A DNA stretch of 64,000 bases from Hesseltinella vesiculosa (Eukaryota > Mucoromycota > Mucoromycetes > Mucorales > Cunninghamellaceae), in assembly GCA_002104935.1 (NCBI GenBank), contig MCGT01000001.1, positions 1,133,001 to 1,197,000 on the forward strand, in the 5' to 3' direction. Below the pieces are notes generated by a model, which was given only the letters and a program-made list of their open reading frames with translations, had not been told where the DNA came from and searched no databases. This document shows positions 8,526 through 59,841 of this stretch, piece after piece (the first letter of the stretch is position 1; each line of letters opens with the position of its first letter). The translations under genes were made by a program, and so were the position numbers.

Positions 8526-9109
8526 GCGTCTCTCGTTTATTGTTCAACTTTTTTGATGTTTCGCTATCAACAAAAAAAAAGTTGCCTGTCATTTTTCCCA
8601 GTCATCTGATCCCTGCATGGTGTGGTAGTTAGTATAGTAGTACAAGTTGACATCCTTGATGAGAAAACTTACAGTATTGTAGCACCAAAAGAACGTATAT
8701 AAGAATCATGATGAAATCGACTGCACCTCTTTCATTCAATTTAAATTGTCTTGTCTGTCTTGTCTTAAAATGCCTACAACGGAATATGATCTTGGTTATG
8801 AAAATCCTGCTATCTTTAAGACGTATGATTTCATGGGCGCATCTGATTCCCAATCAGCTTCACCCTCTTTGGCGATTGAAGAACATCCTTTTGTCAACAT
8901 TGACTACCAACAATCGCGCAAGGACCAACGCATGCTGAGCCCAATGCAGCGGTGCAAGATTTGGATATGTGTGTACCAGTTGGAAATGTCCTACACAAAA
9001 ACGGCAAAATGCGTGAACGCGTCGCGTAGCAGTTGCCACAAATATGCAAGGATGTTTGATGGCAACCCACCCTACGACTTGCTGGAGCAGTTTGGTGTTG
9101 CAGCGATGG

Positions 9110-9215
9110 CTGAAAATACCGGTGTTCCTCTTACCGCCCTACAGCCCATTCCTCAATCCCATTGAGGAATGTTGGGCCAAAATCAAGGCAGGTGTGCGCC
9201 GGTCCCCTTGGACAA
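9110..9215 (+). mobile_element. C-terminal fragment of a second, different DDE transposase
   Basis: In a different frame from the surrounding transposase, about 30 residues read VFLLPPYSPFLNPIEECW then AKIKAGVRRSPW. This is the end of a DDE catalytic domain (the YSPxLNPIE block with the final Glu). The host element has its own, differently spelled copy of the same block (SYSPELNPIEQFW) at about 9850-9890, so this is a fragment of another element placed inside it. It ends in a T run. Confidence 0.65.
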
Positions 9216-9268
9216 CCTCTTTTTTTTTTCAAGAAAATATGAAGGTGCTTTTTTTTTTTTTTTTTTTT

Positions 9269-9410
9269 TTTGCGTGCACTGGAGATCTGGTTTGCGTGAG
9301 GGGAGACTAGGTTTGCGGGAGTCGGGGGTCTGGTTTGCGTGGCTGGAGAATCAGATTCACGTGCACTGGAAATGCTTTGCGTGCACTCAAATTTATTTTG
9401 CCTGCGCGCC
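9269..9410 (+). repeat. degenerate array of ~22-bp repeats inside the broken transposase
   Basis: Six to seven units of 20-22 bp, most beginning TTTGCGTG, start at 9269, 9291, 9312, 9334, 9356, 9376 and 9396. The better units share the core TTTGCGTGCACTGGAGATCTGG with substitutions. Later units drift (TTCACGTGCACTGGAAATGC). The array follows a run of about 22 T and ends where the DDE domain resumes. It is G/T-rich on this strand, unlike its neighbours. Confidence 0.65.
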
Positions 9411-10064
9411 AATCATCATCAATAATACTGGATTTTACGAGAAACTGTGTCTTTCTTGACGAATCTGCTTTCCATATTAATTTGAAATGTAGTATGGCAT
9501 GGTCAAAGAAAGGTGCACCGGCAGTGGTCACCGTTCCCAAAACTCGAGCGACAACAGCAACCATTTTAGGCGCGATCTCTGCTGAAGGTCTAATCAAATG
9601 CAGCCTTAGACTTCCTCAGCCTCCATCCAGTAAAAAGAGAAAGCGAGGAGATGGCATTGGGCATATGAGCAAAGGAACGGTTACGGGACACTACGTGAGC
9701 TTTCTAAAAGCTACGATGGATGAAATGGATCATTATCCGCACATGAAAGGTGATTACCTCGTGATGGATAATGCTCCTATCCATACATCAGAGAACATAG
9801 CCAAATACGTAGAATCTCGGGGCTACCACTGCGCTTACTTGCCTTCCTATTCTCCTGAGCTCAATCCAATCGAGCAATTCTGGTCAGTGGTCAAAAGTAA
9901 AGTGAAACGCAACAAATTTCTCGAGAAGGAAACATTGATGACTCGGATCAGTGAAGCTTCTAATAGCTTGAAGCTAAGTGATTTTAAAGGATTTGTTGGG
10001 CATTCTCACAAGTGCTTGGACAAGTGCCGTAATAGGCAAGCGCTCTGAAACTATTGAAATCAGA

Positions 10065-10834: not shown

Positions 10835-11260
10835 AAATAGGGATCCTATGGAAGCAGTCATTGATGCGGGGAGAAAAATTACTGATAATGCCATGCAGAT
10901 CCTTGATAGAAACATTATTACACGCCGCTTTGACTCGATGCGGCCGACCAGAACTGCTCAATCGGATTGAGCTCAGGGGAATAGGTTGGAAGATGCATGC
11001 ATCGATACCCACGATTCCTGATGAAGGTATCGATGGCCTTGGATTGATGAATTGGTGCATTGGCCATCACCAAATAGCAGCCGTCAAATTCTGGATGTTG
11101 GTCCATAGTATTCATGACCTCATTCAAGAAGGCGATGTAGTGGTGAGTGTTTGTGCCGATGTCAATGTGTTTGTAGGTAACTTGATCAAGTTGCTTTTTT
11201 GTTCCTTGTAGGCGGACTTCCCATGCTGATTTGAACAACACCAGAAGCACAAGGAACAAG
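10835..11260 (-). pseudogene. truncated Tc1/mariner-like DDE transposase, second Asp lost
   Basis: On the minus strand, about 100 residues match the catalytic domain of the 9.4-10.0 kb transposase at roughly half identity: HHYIAFLNEVMNTMDQHPEF, then YLVMANAPIHQS, then YSPELNPIEQFW. The second catalytic Asp (MDNAPIH in the neighbour) is Ala here. After FWSAAS the frame stops; similarity, if any, continues in another frame with frameshifts. The N-terminal half and the first catalytic Asp are missing. This is an inactive relic of a diverged family member. Confidence 0.75.
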
Positions 11261-50445: not shown

Positions 50446-52374
50446 ATGGATGCGGCTAATCAGCTGTCACCAGAAATCATAGCATCTGTCATTAGTTATG
50501 TGTCGCCTCGTCATCTGATCGATACGGCCCTGGTGTGCCGCGCTTGGACCTACATCTCCCTGAAACAACTCTACCGCACCGTGTACATTCACAATGCTCG
50601 CCAGCTCTACAAATTTATGAATACACTACCTCGTCTCGATTCAACGTACCGCAACGCCATCCGCCACTTGCTTTTCAACGGCCAGTACACACCAGAGGGT
50701 CTCATTGTTAAACCCAGCCACTTGCAGGAAATGACATCTCACACGCCTCACGTTGACACGATTGCGTTTGTTGCCAAGCTGGAATGCGCTGCGCCGCCTC
50801 TAGGATTGACCCATGCTATCCTTAGCAATGACGTTGATGTCATCCCACACTGGCCCTTTGAAGAATTCCCAGCAAACTTACCCTATTTGAATCAGATAGG
50901 CGTGTTATTAGACAGTCCGTCCTTGCAGGACCACCTTGCCCTGCTCCGCCATCCTCTCACTTTGCTCACGCTGACACCAACACAATGGCAAACGGATCTC
51001 CTCCCGCCCTATCGCGAAAGCTGTTCACCCCCAGCGTCACCGTTCTTCCCCTACCTGACTTCGCTTACGCTTTGCACGAGAAACACCGACACCCTGCTTC
51101 TTGCACCCTGCCTCGTCTGGGTCCAACAGCATTGCCCAGTCCTGGATCATTTGACCGTTGACGCATTTACTCTAGAGCACATCAAGGATATACCCGACAA
51201 GCCCCCACCTGTGACTGTGCCTCACACTTCTGTGAAGTCCCTGAGAATCAGAGCAGATTTGCAAGTCCAGTCCCTCCCTTCGTTTGCGTTTTTTGCCGCC
51301 ATCTACCCCGGTCTTCGCAACCTGTCTTTGTTTGTTGGTGTTGTGGACGATGGTGATGGTCTTGGCTACCCCCATTATTTCCAGGATGGACTCGGAGAAG
51401 AACAGTTTGCACCAGAACACACTGACATTGCTCAACTCCAGCTGTGGAAACGCGAGCTGCTCGACTGGCTGGCAAACGCGGCGGCATTGACTAGCCTTGA
51501 CCTCTTTGAACTTGGATCGGCCGGGAAAACAGTGAAGATGATCCAGGCGATCACATACCTAGCAACACAAGGATCCTGGAAACCGAGGCTGACCCACCTT
51601 CGCATTGGCGATTCTACTTCTCCAATCCTCGTGCCGATCCACAGCTTGATGACCTGCAATGCTCTGGTGGGGTCGGTGCGCTCCCTAGCCTTGTCTTTCG
51701 ATGTCTACAGCCTCAGCTTCGACTTGTACTCGCCCAGGTTGACCCAACTGAGCCTGATGACAGTTCCTCCCAGTCCTCCTTTGCTCTGGATGGGCTTGTT
51801 CGTCGCTTGCCCGGCCTTGACGTCACTGAGCCTACGTGGGTTTTTTCTTCAACCGACCGAGATCAGTCAGCCAGCTGGAAACACCGCTGATCCCGACCAT
51901 GCCAGCCTCTACCCACACCGGTTTCCTTTGACACGTCTGACGCTGGTGAATTGCGATTTGGAGTCACCTCACCTCGTCCATTTATTCCTGCGCTATGCAT
52001 TGCCTAAGCTGTCTTTTATCAACTGGGATTTTATCAAGCTCCCCGGTATCAGAGTACCGATCTACCCAGCACTCCATCTCCCAGACCATCACCTCAGCCG
52101 ACTTTGGCTGGCTAATATCAAAATCGGCTTCGGGGAATCCTGCTCGGTCCTTCGTGTGTTTGAACGGCGTGGTCCCAGAGTGACCGAGATTGAGAAACAG
52201 ACGTGGACTCGACTCATGGAAGTGGCTGAGGAGAAAACCTCACCCATCAAGCAAGAAGCCTTTGACCTTGGCGACCCTCAAGAACTAGAACCTAGACATC
52301 CCAAGCACTTCCATGTTGTGTGCAACTATGCCGAAGATATTATGTTCAATTCTTCTCTTGGCGTTACTGGCTAG
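50446..52374 (+). CDS. F-box protein with a leucine-rich C-terminal region
   Basis: Probable substrate receptor of an SCF ubiquitin ligase. Intronless. I chose the Met at 50446 (MDAANQLSPEIIASVISYVS) over an upstream in-frame Met at 50344, because the extra residues come from a T-run leader. The F-box spans about residues 6-50: LSPEIIASVISYVSPRHLID, TALVCRAWTYISLKQLYRTV. Irregular leucine-rich segments follow (PYLTSLTLCTRNTDTLLL, AALTSLDLFELGSAGKT, CPALTSLSLRGFFLQP, FPLTRLTLVNCDLESPHLVH). Substrate unknown. It ends in VTG at 52374, convergent with the Fanzor-like gene. Confidence 0.85.
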   Translation: MDAANQLSPEIIASVISYVSPRHLIDTALVCRAWTYISLKQLYRTVYIHNARQLYKFMNTLPRLDSTYRNAIRHLLFNGQYTPEGLIVKPSHLQEMTSHTPHVDTIAFVAKLECAAPPLGLTHAILSNDVDVIPHWPFEEFPANLPYLNQIGVLLDSPSLQDHLALLRHPLTLLTLTPTQWQTDLLPPYRESCSPPASPFFPYLTSLTLCTRNTDTLLLAPCLVWVQQHCPVLDHLTVDAFTLEHIKDIPDKPPPVTVPHTSVKSLRIRADLQVQSLPSFAFFAAIYPGLRNLSLFVGVVDDGDGLGYPHYFQDGLGEEQFAPEHTDIAQLQLWKRELLDWLANAAALTSLDLFELGSAGKTVKMIQAITYLATQGSWKPRLTHLRIGDSTSPILVPIHSLMTCNALVGSVRSLALSFDVYSLSFDLYSPRLTQLSLMTVPPSPPLLWMGLFVACPALTSLSLRGFFLQPTEISQPAGNTADPDHASLYPHRFPLTRLTLVNCDLESPHLVHLFLRYALPKLSFINWDFIKLPGIRVPIYPALHLPDHHLSRLWLANIKIGFGESCSVLRVFERRGPRVTEIEKQTWTRLMEVAEEKTSPIKQEAFDLGDPQELEPRHPKHFHVVCNYAEDIMFNSSLGVTG

Positions 52375-52425
52375 CCCGATCTGGTTCCGTGGACCCCTTC
52401 ACAATGAAAACAGCTTAACATACAC

Positions 52426-52431
52426 TTTATT
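52426..52431 (-). terminator. polyadenylation signal of the Fanzor-like gene
   Basis: AATAAA on the minus strand, about 300 nt past the Fanzor-like stop. It makes a transcript with a ~300-nt 3' untranslated region plausible. The spacer to the F-box gene stop at 52374 holds nothing else recognised. Confidence 0.45.
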
Positions 52432-52699
52432 GAAGTAAAAATGTCGCAATTCAAAAGGAAAGATGTCGCAGAACAAACTAACAAAAATGGAATAAAGTTG
52501 GGTGAGTTCAGTATGAATGGGCGAATCAGAGAAACCAAATGGACTTACCAAGGATACGAGAAACGAAAGGGATAACAAGGGTGAACAAGAAAAAAAATGT
52601 GAAGATGCTGAGTTATGTGTTTATGAAGTCTTTACCTAGTTTTCATGTCTTGATGACAGAGCCGCCGCCTCACACTCACAGAGCGTGGTGCATTGTACA

Positions 52700-52739
52700 A
52701 AGTCGTTGGTAAGATTTCAAAGTCGCTCATAAGATTTCA
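52700..52739. repeat. 20-bp tandem duplication over the Fanzor-like stop codon
   Basis: Units 52700-52719 and 52720-52739, both beginning AAGTCG and ending TAAGATTTCA, differ at three of twenty positions. The stop codon (52727-52729, minus strand) lies in the second unit. Confidence 0.8.
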
Positions 52740-55700
52740 CAATTGGTCAGCTGTCCATAGCACCGCAAAGCAATGCACGTACACGAGAGGGAGTCTCGAC
52801 CAAAGCAGTTTTTTTGTTGCTGGTAAGCTTCACAGGAGGGGTTGGTGCAGCAAGAGGTACCCAGGTTCAGTTTCGACCTGCCATTAACAGTTTTGCGGGG
52901 GTGAATGATGCGGTGGCGGCAGAAAGGGCATGTCATCGACGTACGGGCTTCATTGGTGACAAGGACGATGGTATGTTGTCGTGATATGTGTCGGTGCCAT
53001 TTGCCACCTAGTCGAAAATGACCGCCCACTCTTGAACCAACCCCAGTGCCCGCATGCCCAATGGCTTGGATGAGGGTCTTGTCATGCTTTCGCTTGGCAT
53101 CCACTGGGATTTTCGTCTTCACCAGCCATTGTCGCCATTGTAAGTGTCGACGTCGACGCTCGATTTGCGGATGGTGGTAAAATTCACGGAGTTTTGCTAC
53201 TTTAGAGCGTGTTTGGGCAAAGCGATCGTTCAGTTGCTGGACAGTCATGGCTGAGGCCAGGGAATTGTGCGCAAGGATGGCTTCAGCTTGAGATACTTCT
53301 TGACCAGCGCCTGTCTTCAAAAAAATTAAAGAGTTAGATAAGCTCAATGTGGCTAGGAGTTGCTTATTTCTTACTTTTTCCTTTGCACGTTGTAATCGTC
53401 GTTGCAGCTGGAACTGCCCAGTCTTCCACGCAATATCCTTTGCAACCAACTTTGTTGGTTTTGGTAACTTGAAGAATTGGCCAGCCTTCAATTTCTCCAA
53501 CTCCTCGAGAGTGTGCGTCACCGTTGTGGCCATTGTCACAATACCATAGTCGGTACCAGATAGGATACATTCCTTGAGATCAAGGTCAAGCTGCGTATGG
53601 CGAGGGTCCTCCTCTACACGAGTGGTCTTGTTAATCTTGGTTGGAGGAATGGGTGGCGAGGGCTTGGTTTTTTTGGGCTTCTTGGTGTCAGTTGCCTGCA
53701 GGAAAAAAAATCGGAACGTGAGCACCTTCCTGCTCCTTTCTAAGTTCATCTGGACATACCTCCTGTAAGTGATACCGTGTGCGTCGTAAATTGGCAAGAC
53801 TATCTTGGGCTGCATGCACGTCACGTGTAGCCTTCTGTGCTGCTGCTTTTAGCCGCCGTTCTTCTTGAACCATCGCAAACTTGGAGGTTTCTGTCTTGCC
53901 TACCAAAAGAAATAAATATAAATGATATGGCTGTTTCCCTGAATCATTCCCTATTCTTTTTGAGCACCTTTGATTTTGCTTGTGTTGGAGGTTGATGGAT
54001 GGTTGACGGTGGCTGTTGTCTTCAATGCACAGCGAGTGCTGCGCAGCTGCTTCGTCATGTCTCGCTTGGCACTGGTGACGCGGTCTCGTTCTTTTTCGGC
54101 AAGTGAGATGGCTTCGCCAATGGTGTCGAGGTCATGAGCAAGGACGTTATCGGTTGTCGCGGAAGTAGCATCGACATCGGCAGTGGGGGCCTTGAGCCGC
54201 TTTTCATACATCGATTGCTGACGTGGCTTGATCGTACAACCAAAGAGCAACGTATCGAAGGCAGGCGTCACGTCGATTCGGTAGATGAACTCAGTTCCAT
54301 TCTTCGTGCAAGCCTTTGTGACTTCATCCATGTCGAAAATAGTGGAGAAGACACTGTGCTTGTTTTGCCGTGCTGTCCGGATGCATGTTACGCCGTTCGA
54401 GCGCATATCGACCCTCTTGTGGAGTAATTCGTACAGGGATGGAGCATTCATGGAAAGGGTGTATAGCGAACTAGCCGACACAACTGGGCAGTACTGCTGA
54501 CAAAATGTGTGGTACCCGCAAACACGAAGGACTTGGTTGCCGAGCATGATAAGATTGATTTTGCGGTATTTGAGGCGCCCGGGATGCTTCGGCCCATCAT
54601 ACACCATGTACGGCTTCAGGTGCTGGTAGATTCGCTTCAGCACGTCGAGCTCATGGCCAGTGGGGTCGAGCTTTTTCGATTGCTCGTGTACCATGGTAGC
54701 ATCCAACAATGGTGGAAGGCTCTCATCCCAGAGCAATCGAGACAAAACACCCTGTATGGTGCCAAGCCGGCGTGCGGATAGATCATGGGCATTCCCACCG
54801 GAGGGCAAATTGTCAAGATCATATCCCGTGCTATCCAAATCGTCCATGGCAGCTAAATCCTCTTTGTCTTGGTCCTAAAAAAAATGAGTGAGTTTCAGAG
54901 AAATAACCTGAGCGTCCATTGTATGCTCCAAATATATACTTCTTCACCAGCATCAGACAATGAGGCTGCTTTCGCTGCAGACAACGGTTTCAATTGTTTC
55001 TAGAAAGACCGAAGGGAAAAAAGTGAGAAATCAATGTGATTCATTTTCGCTGAGATCCGTTACCTTTTTCTTCTCTTCCTCGGCAGCTTTGCGGGCAGCT
55101 TGTCGTTTAGCATCCAATGATTCCTATTCATAAAATAAAGCACATAAGATCAACATTCAATCATTGCCAGCTTGACATCTCACCAGAACCGATTTCAAGT
55201 GCGAGATCCGGGAATCATATCCTTGCTGTTTCACGTTGTTGAACGAGCCCTTGGTCTTGTCCTTGGCCAATTGCCATTCCTGGCGCCTCAATGCTGTACG
55301 TACATGTGACCATTGTTTCTTCAGTTGACGCACCTCGTTTACTTCGACCTCCTATAAAAAAATTAGGAAAAGCACTCTTTACTTGATGGACAGCCAGGTG
55401 AGGTGTACCCCTACCTTGGTTTTCGCAGCCTTGGCGGCCGCCGCGTTTGCTTTGGCGTCATGGTGGCGTTTTTCTCGCTGGGGGGCAAGCCAAAGTCGCA
55501 GGAGCAGGCGCAGCAGATATCGCAGCATGGTTTTGAATGATTTCCCAGAAAGGAGGTTTTGAACGTTGGTTTCCATCTTATTGTTGTAGATGGATCGCAG
55601 TTCACTGGTCATGATGCCAAGGTCAGGACGACGAGTTGTGACATCCACATCAAGATAGGACCACACTGGGCGGTTAGTTTTTGTGGACGCCTGGGTCTTG

Positions 55701-56601
55701 CCGAAGGTTGATGAGAAGAGGTATTGTATGTGGCCAATGGAGAATAAATCGTCCGCCAACGCACGAGTAGGGGGCGGAAGCGCAAAAAACGTCATTTCTC
55801 GACTCAGTTCATCTGAGTGGCGAAGGGCGGCGACAGGGACAAGGTCGGACGCAGACAAGTATTTCAGTTCACCTGACCAAAAAAAATAAGGTGAGTCGAT
55901 CAGCTGGTTTTTTTTTTTTTTTTGAAAAGTGGCCTGATATCCATCATACCATTGTACCAATCAGGGCTCGGTGTCGTTGCAAATTTTAACATGGTTGCTT
56001 GCAGTAAAAATGTCATTTCTTGACAGTAATTGGTCGCTTCACTCATCGCTGTCTTGAATAGTCCAAAGACCTCATTTTTCAGTGATTGGCCTGTGTCAGA
56101 TTTGAAATGGCTTGCCAGGATGGATGTCAGGCCCTTGTGAACGCCACGGATCTCTTCTTTTAACTTGGTGACAGGTGGAGTTGAGGAAGAGGATGGATCG
56201 ATGGACAAGGGCAACGCAGCAGAGGAGGAGGACGGTTGGTCTGTTGATGAGGTAGCCATGACTTCGGCCAATGTTTCAGAGGACAAAGATGCAAATGACT
56301 CATTCAGCGTGCTTTTCCACACTGCCATGAACGCGAACTTCTTGTTGTATTTTGCGGTAAAGAAACCCGGCTTCCAGTGGCAGGCATCATCAATATTCTT
56401 CAGTAGACCTTTTGGTAGCCGTAGAACATTGTCCAGCTCGGTCTTGGTCTTGCCATGGTCCTTGGAAGTCAACAGTTTCGCCTTGATGTGCCGACGGATT
56501 TCGAGAATGAGGGCCTCCTTGGCCTCCATTTCATCGCTGATGCTTAGCAGGGGTTTTGTTGACGGTCGATCTGACAATTGCTGAGCACGACGCTTACCCA
56601 T
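52727..56601 (-). CDS. Fanzor-like (TnpB-related) RuvC protein
   Basis: Large protein of roughly 1,100 residues, about nine exons. It starts at 56601 (MGKRRAQQLSDRPSTKPLLS). The ~700-residue front is helical and charged with coiled-coil parts (ELRSIYNNKMETNVQNLLSG; EKERDRVTSAKRDMTKQLRS) and no known domain. The C-terminus shows RuvC I, GTDYGIVTMAT (Asp codon 53549-53551); a basic helical stretch; RuvC II, VLVTNEARTSMTCPFC (Glu codon 52949-52951) merging into a Cys-rich zinc-ribbon-like part (TCPFC, later SCCTNPSC); and RuvC III, CFGRDSLSCTCIAL (Asp codon 52793-52795). This order matches TnpB and Fanzor nucleases, known in Mucoromycota. Introns restore frame at 55950/55872 and near 53377/53317. 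The Fanzor class and activity are inferred. The start ATGGGTAAGC also resembles a splice donor, so an upstream exon is possible. Confidence 0.75.
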
Positions 56602-56923
56602 TAGAACAAAGGTATAAAGTGAAAAAAAAAGACGCGAAAAACTGGGAAAAGAAAAAGGACGAAGAGATGAGTTTGAATCGCCAGGAAAAAAAAAAAAAAG
56701 AGGGCTTGAGCACAGGACCCTCTGGTAAGAACACCAAGGAATCAAAGGCCAACAGGAAGGGGTATGATGGAAAAGCTTATTTGCTATGTTTCCGTTGTCT
56801 TTCTATCCTCACCCCATGGCATTCGTTTTCCCAAACGTCATATTTATTCTGCAACATGCGGCATTGAAAGTGGAAAGACTGTAAACCCAGTCTTTCCGTC
56901 TCACTCGACTCTGTTTGCTTCTT
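56602..56923. other. spacer between SEC18 stop and Fanzor-like start
   Basis: 322 bp upstream of the Fanzor-like ATG, on the same strand as both genes. Purine-rich on the plus strand (pyrimidine-rich in gene sense), with a 14-A run near 56686. No gene or element end is recognised. Confidence 0.4.

Positions 56924-59841
<2,918 letters not shown>

Follow-up and report, generated by a model that had tools for sequence, protein, structure and literature searches.

TnpB of the prokaryotic IS200/IS605 elements, which use an HUH transposase, is a protein of about 400 aa, and the gene described here shares with it the order of the nuclease core and a proposed copy-back logic. For both TnpB and Fanzor, the idea that cutting of an empty site and its repair copy an element back is discussed in the part of PMC10432273 drawn on here. 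Among the eukaryotic Fanzor1 nucleases, SpuFz1 of Spizellomyces punctatus (PDB 8gkh), PpFz1 and GtFz1 have the order RuvC I-RuvC II-zinc ribbon-RuvC III, and their genes lie, according to the sections of the published accounts consulted, in multicopy elements in which no transposase was found and whose left end is preceded by conserved bases. In the portion of Bao and Jurka 2013 (PMC3627910) used here, Fanzor1 is placed in Mariner elements, including Fanzor-only elements with TA duplications, and Mucor, Rhizopus and Phycomyces are treated; PMC11423790, likewise drawn on in part, treats a Parasitella Fanzor, and among the listed titles and beginnings of abstracts there was no work on Mucorales Fanzors other than PMC11423790.

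Here we analyze a 64,000-nucleotide stretch of the Hesseltinella vesiculosa genome (the window, with position 1 its first letter). We find that the Fanzor1-type gene it holds is best explained as the cargo of a non-autonomous Tc1/mariner-type transposon, an explanation that, taken together with a proposed omegaRNA and copy-back, we consider likely.

A Fanzor1-type gene with all catalytic residues

52727..56601, minus strand: Fanzor1-type gene, nine exons, 1117 aa (gene model, homologues and profile match to SpuFz1)
56601-55950, 55872-55415, 55351-55184, 55123-55064, 54999-54940, 54874-53968, 53899-53760, 53695-53375 and 53314-52727, minus strand: its exons
53549..53551, minus strand: codon of the RuvC-I catalytic Asp864 (GTDYG), invariant in 6/6 proteins
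52949..52951, minus strand: codon of the RuvC-II catalytic Glu1044 (TNEARTS), which aligns with the E of SpuFz1 DEYKTS
52832..52930, minus strand: C4 zinc ribbon, C1051 and C1054 (CPFC), C1078 and C1083 (CCTNPSC)
52793..52795, minus strand: codon of the RuvC-III catalytic Asp1096 (FGRD), which aligns with SpuFz1 NRD

The original prediction of a Fanzor-like gene of several exons at 52727..56601 is correct in position; the gene lies on the minus strand, with its ATG at 56601 and its stop codon ending at 52727. Exon joins, based on splice signals and on alignment to the gene models of homologues, leave eight introns of 60-77 nt each, all GT..AG, and the nine exons join to a 1117-aa frame without a premature stop, as had been proposed. 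The motifs quoted at the outset (GTDYG, TNEARTS, CPFC, CCTNPSC and FGRD) are all present in Fanzor order, and D864, E1044, the four cysteines and D1096 are identical at all seven positions in six aligned proteins: the window protein, P0001 from Halteromyces radiatus, P0002 and P0003 (near-duplicates, family B) and P0004 (family C), these three from H. vesiculosa, and P0005 from Actinomortierella ambigua, which is 25% identical to P0002. The Fanzor motif D-X(125,275)-[TS][TS]-X-X-C4 zinc finger-X(5,50)-RD, as given in the portion of PMC3627910 used here, is found in the window protein with 182 residues from D864 to TS and 11 from the last Cys to RD.

A profile of homologues matches SpuFz1 with an E of 1.8e-6 (1.8e-5 with nine proteins); a single-sequence search with the window protein alone gives no such match to a characterised Fanzor, and one of six family members matches Cas12f1-like_TNB in Pfam, weakly (best E 0.016). 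Fanzor structures were compared, as the original prediction had proposed, with a model of the homologue P0001, which is of moderate quality (mean pLDDT 63, pTM 0.36), has the RuvC/TNB fold and matches SpuFz1 (Foldseek 4.7e-5) and, more weakly, GtFz1 and PpFz1. In a second structure comparison the same model gives a Z of 11.6 to SpuFz, barely above the 10.8 of unrelated coiled-coil matches, which concern another part of the model; most non-Fanzor rows here match the long helices 301-415 and were left out, and an earlier model (5 sequences, pLDDT 52) was left out of the fold search. Profile, motif and the fold of P0001 together bear out the Fanzor identity. Judged by its sequence, the window gene encodes a Fanzor1-type RuvC nuclease with all catalytic residues, and it shares with SpuFz1, PpFz1 and GtFz1 the domain order, the catalytic residues and the fold match.

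It differs from them in length, at 1117 aa against 600-700 for most Fz1 proteins and up to about 800 in the descriptions drawn on, and in a long clade-specific front. A long front ahead of RuvC I had been noted and is present, but it spans about 860 residues rather than about 700, and it is not peculiar to the window copy: it aligns with P0002, P0003 and P0005, and its residues 1-400 are under purifying selection. Relative to L017, stretches of whose protein are 66-84% identical to the window protein, dN/dS is 0.19 overall, 0.198 over residues 1-400 and 0.14 over the nuclease part; in the underlying alignment some exon edges were misplaced (exon 2 gained 69 inserted columns), codons with gaps were skipped, and the terminal stop was the only stop met. 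This measurement, also named by the original prediction, indicates purifying selection. Across the six complete coding regions in the genome, 19 variable codons are synonymous and 13 are not; two of the six (L010, L013) have a one-base gap and one copy has three inserted bases. An active nuclease, one half of the earlier suggestion of an active or domesticated one, is plausible given a dN/dS of 0.19 and recent copies that are 99.4-99.6% identical; the other half does not hold.

The mobile element and its carrier

52423..56881, minus strand: mobile element, 4459 bp between flanking TAs, common to other copies whose flanks are unrelated
From 56881 and ending at 52423, minus strand: element tips, CAGTCTTTCC on the left and ...AAAGTG on the right
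56882..56883: left TA, with GTT before it in this copy and ATT in most of the copies; putative TAM side and target duplication
52421..52422: right TA, then T; a putative guide would begin in the flank beyond

A 61-aa RuvC-I probe finds 39 matches in the whole genome (27.05 Mb, 85 contigs), seven of them at 100%, so that the paralogue count makes the gene multicopy. The seven copies of the element (family A) comprise six complete ones, the window's included, and L014, which is cut by a contig end. Their alignments (99.4-99.6% DNA identity) end at the same left base and, on the right, within one base of the window copy's end, TA stands at both ends of all six complete copies, and the flanks are unrelated; these sharp common ends overturn the earlier view that no obvious element ends lie beside the gene. 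The Fanzor gene fills the element except for about 0.3 kb on either side; the TIRs are weak, the tips CAGTCTTTCC and CACTTTATTG agreeing only partly. Families B and C are likewise multicopy in the same genome, with aligned pieces 96.6-99.8% identical. That the gene is instead a settled, domesticated and immobile host gene, as first suggested, is scarcely credible: it is a long open gene under purifying selection, with an F-box gene on one side and an AAA ATPase gene on the other, but the seven near-identical copies with common ends and unrelated flanks and the two further multicopy families speak against this, and the copy number already refutes it for the window gene's family.

The neighbors, an F-box protein and an NSF-like AAA ATPase, are convergent, with stop codons at 52372-52374 and 56924-56926 that would be about 88 bp apart without the element. 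In the flank, at 56888-56897, the minus strand reads GGAAAGACTG, which repeats the tip CAGTCTTTCC perfectly in inverted form over 10 bp; the 50-base left flanks of the five further complete copies show no such repeat. L044 is a decayed relative of family A, with a left end and a gene start containing in-frame stops, followed by other sequence. Many copies of families B and C lie near contig ends, and a telomeric location was considered for them and rejected; because several contig ends fall inside elements and the examined loci contained no repeats of telomere type, this looks like assembly breakage.

The tips of family C, CAGTCAAACCA and CACTTAAACCA (the second read inward), agree at 9/11 bases. 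Ahead of its Fanzor gene runs an open stretch with HTH_32 (E 2.9e-9) that ends before a DDE domain and is, from this match, a truncated N-terminal part of a Tc1/mariner transposase. L045 holds an intact 457-aa transposase ORF with HTH_32 and DDE_3 (E 2.6e-28), has about 90% DNA identity to the HTH region of family C and a left tip alike at 23/26 bases, and the genome has at least 164 DDE_3 matches. No DDE transposase lies within the window element, family C having the truncated N-terminal part only, and none with family A's full left end was identified among 20 places (12 known by position alone). We therefore describe the element as a non-autonomous carrier, and the truncated transposase of family C, the L045 transposase and the abundance of DDE_3 lead us to infer mobilization in trans. 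Insertion as a Helitron or an IS200/IS605-like element, considered for the weak TIRs, was dropped because of the TA at both ends, the CA tips and family C's partial Tc1 transposase. Compared by its description in the portion of PMC3627910 used here, the Fanzor-only Mariner PUl-4 is likewise a Fanzor1 alone in a TA-flanked Tc1/mariner-type carrier; it comes from another host, and the H. vesiculosa elements differ in their weak TIRs and in a related family that keeps a truncated transposase N-terminus.

Other Tc1/mariner sequences lie nearby or elsewhere in the genome. DDE_3 (Tc1/mariner) matches occur in the window at 9086-9937 (plus strand) and 10939-11154 (minus strand). The 3.7-kb place G000:C23:1077361-1081094 has inward-facing tips at its two ends that resemble those of families A and C with 1-2 mismatches, and a DDE_3 match lies between them, which makes it a possible autonomous partner on its sequence. 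A second Tc1/mariner family, 1.73 kb long with 116-bp TIRs CACTCTTTCC and a 434-aa ORF with DDE_3 (L013:7051-8780), or a short derivative of it, sits exactly in the terminal TA of a Fanzor/Tc1 element in L013, L027, L030, L032 and L045, that is, in 5/5 loci with its tip, a count that covers loci selected because they contain such elements. Placed at a right end, such an insertion would swap the putative guide for the newcomer's own TIR.

The flanking signature and a predicted TAM

The flanks of the copies carry an oriented signature. On the left, TT precedes the TA in 10/10 flanks and ATT in 8/10, a set made up of six family A copies (five ATT, one GTT), L028 (ATT), L008/L016 (ATT), L044 (GTT) and L032 (ATT, counted after setting aside a nested element), with L030 and L045 excluded since a nested element hides the outer flank. 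On the right, T follows the TA in 20/21 flanks (seven of family A, three of B, seven of C, L016, L017 and L027; L018 is not T) and none begins with AA; a nested element was set aside for L013 and L027, and L022 (a duplicate of L020) and L026 (end undefined) were excluded. Background in the window is 10.8% for TT before a TA and 27% for T after it. A genome-wide pattern count agrees in part: 12 left ends match the tip fully, of which eight fit ATT, one differs from the ATT pattern at one place and three at two (including the nested L032), while the other 23 of 35 tip-like places carry mismatches.

The TAM of SpuFz1 is CATA, and its elements have a conserved CA just upstream of the 5' (left) inverted repeat, in the parts of the published work drawn on. 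By analogy with this TAM and its upstream CA, the oriented signature predicts a TAM of TTTA or ATTTA for the window nuclease. The word of the insertion signature also appears in MCi-5 of Mucor circinelloides, which, compared by its description in the portion of PMC3627910 used here, has a putative 6-bp TSD ATTTAT and no significant TIRs, and differs in that three of five carry a Harbinger transposase.

It is quite possible, if short of probable, that ATT-TA on the left and TA-T on the right reflect a preference of the mobilizing transposase, or sequence of the element itself, rather than a Fanzor TAM. Tc1/mariner transposases have target preferences beyond TA, and seven of the 35 tip-like places were not recovered with ATT within three mismatches, places that may lack ATT or be chance matches. 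Five flank pairs, not including that of the window copy, were joined and used as queries, and no empty site was found (10 of the 12 matches are the copies' own flanks and two are partial paralogues of one left flank), so the TA duplication stays putative and TTTA could belong to the element rather than to the target. What tells against a transposase preference is orientation: a palindromic TA cut by a DDE transposase should treat left and right alike, but no right flank begins with AA, and the SpuFz1 precedent has its conserved bases on the left. The left flank of L011 has a paralogue that reads AATTTTTAT at this place, which weakly suggests that the TT is target DNA.

A stem-loop module 3' of the gene and a proposed cycle

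52630..52701, minus strand: candidate omegaRNA core, SL1 (52687-52681 with 52677-52671) and a downstream hairpin
52632..52635, minus strand: donor-like GTAA motif closing the hairpin module, GTAA in 8/8 aligned variants
52478..52548, minus strand: intron-like 3' stretch of 71 nt (GTAAG, branch-like CTGAAC, TTTTTGTTAG); GTAAG is absent in L016 and L018

A 72-nt module, 26-97 nt after the Fanzor stop codon, is kept in eight variants and across families in which at most about half of the protein residues are shared. In the RNAalifold structure, SL1 has 6-7 pairs, three of which are changed on both sides in some sequences (compensatory); in all, this applies to 6/11 pairs, with a small covariation term (-0.55). 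SL1 has a gap in two sequences and two pairs broken in one sequence each, and is absent from the minimum-energy structure when family B is folded alone. A covariance model finds 23 matches in 272 kb (28 sources, five without a match) and no others up to E 1, each directly 3' of a Fanzor gene; since eight of the matched sequences built the model, the placement is informative and the scores are not. A looser pattern that requires GTAAG has 40 genome matches, against 10 for a reversed control, and finds a module-like place, C30:126859, outside the training set of the covariance model.

We infer that this module is an omegaRNA scaffold and that the flank beyond the right TA would be its guide. That it is instead a 3' UTR or a transposase-binding element appears rather unlikely. 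The distance to the right end would fit such a role, as the family A module starts about 280 nt and ends about 209 nt short of the right end, and the separation is 128-219 nt across the variants; the omegaRNAs of GtFz1, SpuFz1 and PpFz1, in the published parts consulted, have 75-150 nt, and the 75-nt SpuFz1 scaffold runs straight into the guide. Rfam has no match for the module. Against this stand the covarying stem, comparable to the 7-bp SL1 of Fz1 omegaRNAs as far as described there, and the occurrence of the module only beside Fanzor genes in the 272 kb searched.

The GTAA that ends the module raises the further possibility, improbable in our estimate, that the guide RNA is made by splicing, with this GTAA (mostly GTAAG) as donor and the transposon end AAG/TGTA as acceptor. 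In families A and B, L017 and L026, a second GTAAG with a branch-like CTNAAC and an acceptor-like TTAG outlines 64-71 nt, the size of the Fanzor gene's own introns. The last two AGs are 157 nt apart in L028 (family C) and 99 nt apart in L027, the last being that of the terminal AAG/TGTA. In the seven variants whose module end is defined, splicing would join a 69-78-nt scaffold to TA-T and the flanking guide, so that scaffold meets guide although the intervening DNA varies from 128 to 219 nt. We treat it as a minority hypothesis because it draws on sequence patterns only and because the tip AG is also part of the transposon end; the listed titles and beginnings of abstracts included no work on spliced Fanzor RNA.

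Returning to the module as a scaffold, we propose that the element would be moved in trans by the DDE transposase of related Tc1/mariner elements, for instance that of L045 (457 aa), that the 3' module would serve as omegaRNA scaffold with its guide supplied by the flank beyond the right TA, and that on the sister or homologous chromosome the empty target, marked by a TAM of about 5'-TTTA and a guide match, would be cut by the nuclease. Repair of the cut empty site would copy the element back, and this copy-back would let it persist in the genome although it encodes no transposase. New in this proposal are the stem-loop module 3' of the stop codon as a candidate omegaRNA, the oriented insertion signature, TT-TA on the left and TA-T on the right, read as a predicted TAM, and the donor-like GTAA at the module's end with the possibility of a spliced omegaRNA.

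What had been supposed to be a host gene thus becomes a mobile Fanzor system open to experiment, with several near-identical copies, a predicted guide in each right flank, TTTA as predicted TAM and a predicted omegaRNA core. Fanzor carriers share their genome with a Tc1/mariner transposase whose left end is closely similar, and why Fanzor elements that lack a transposase persist becomes directly testable.
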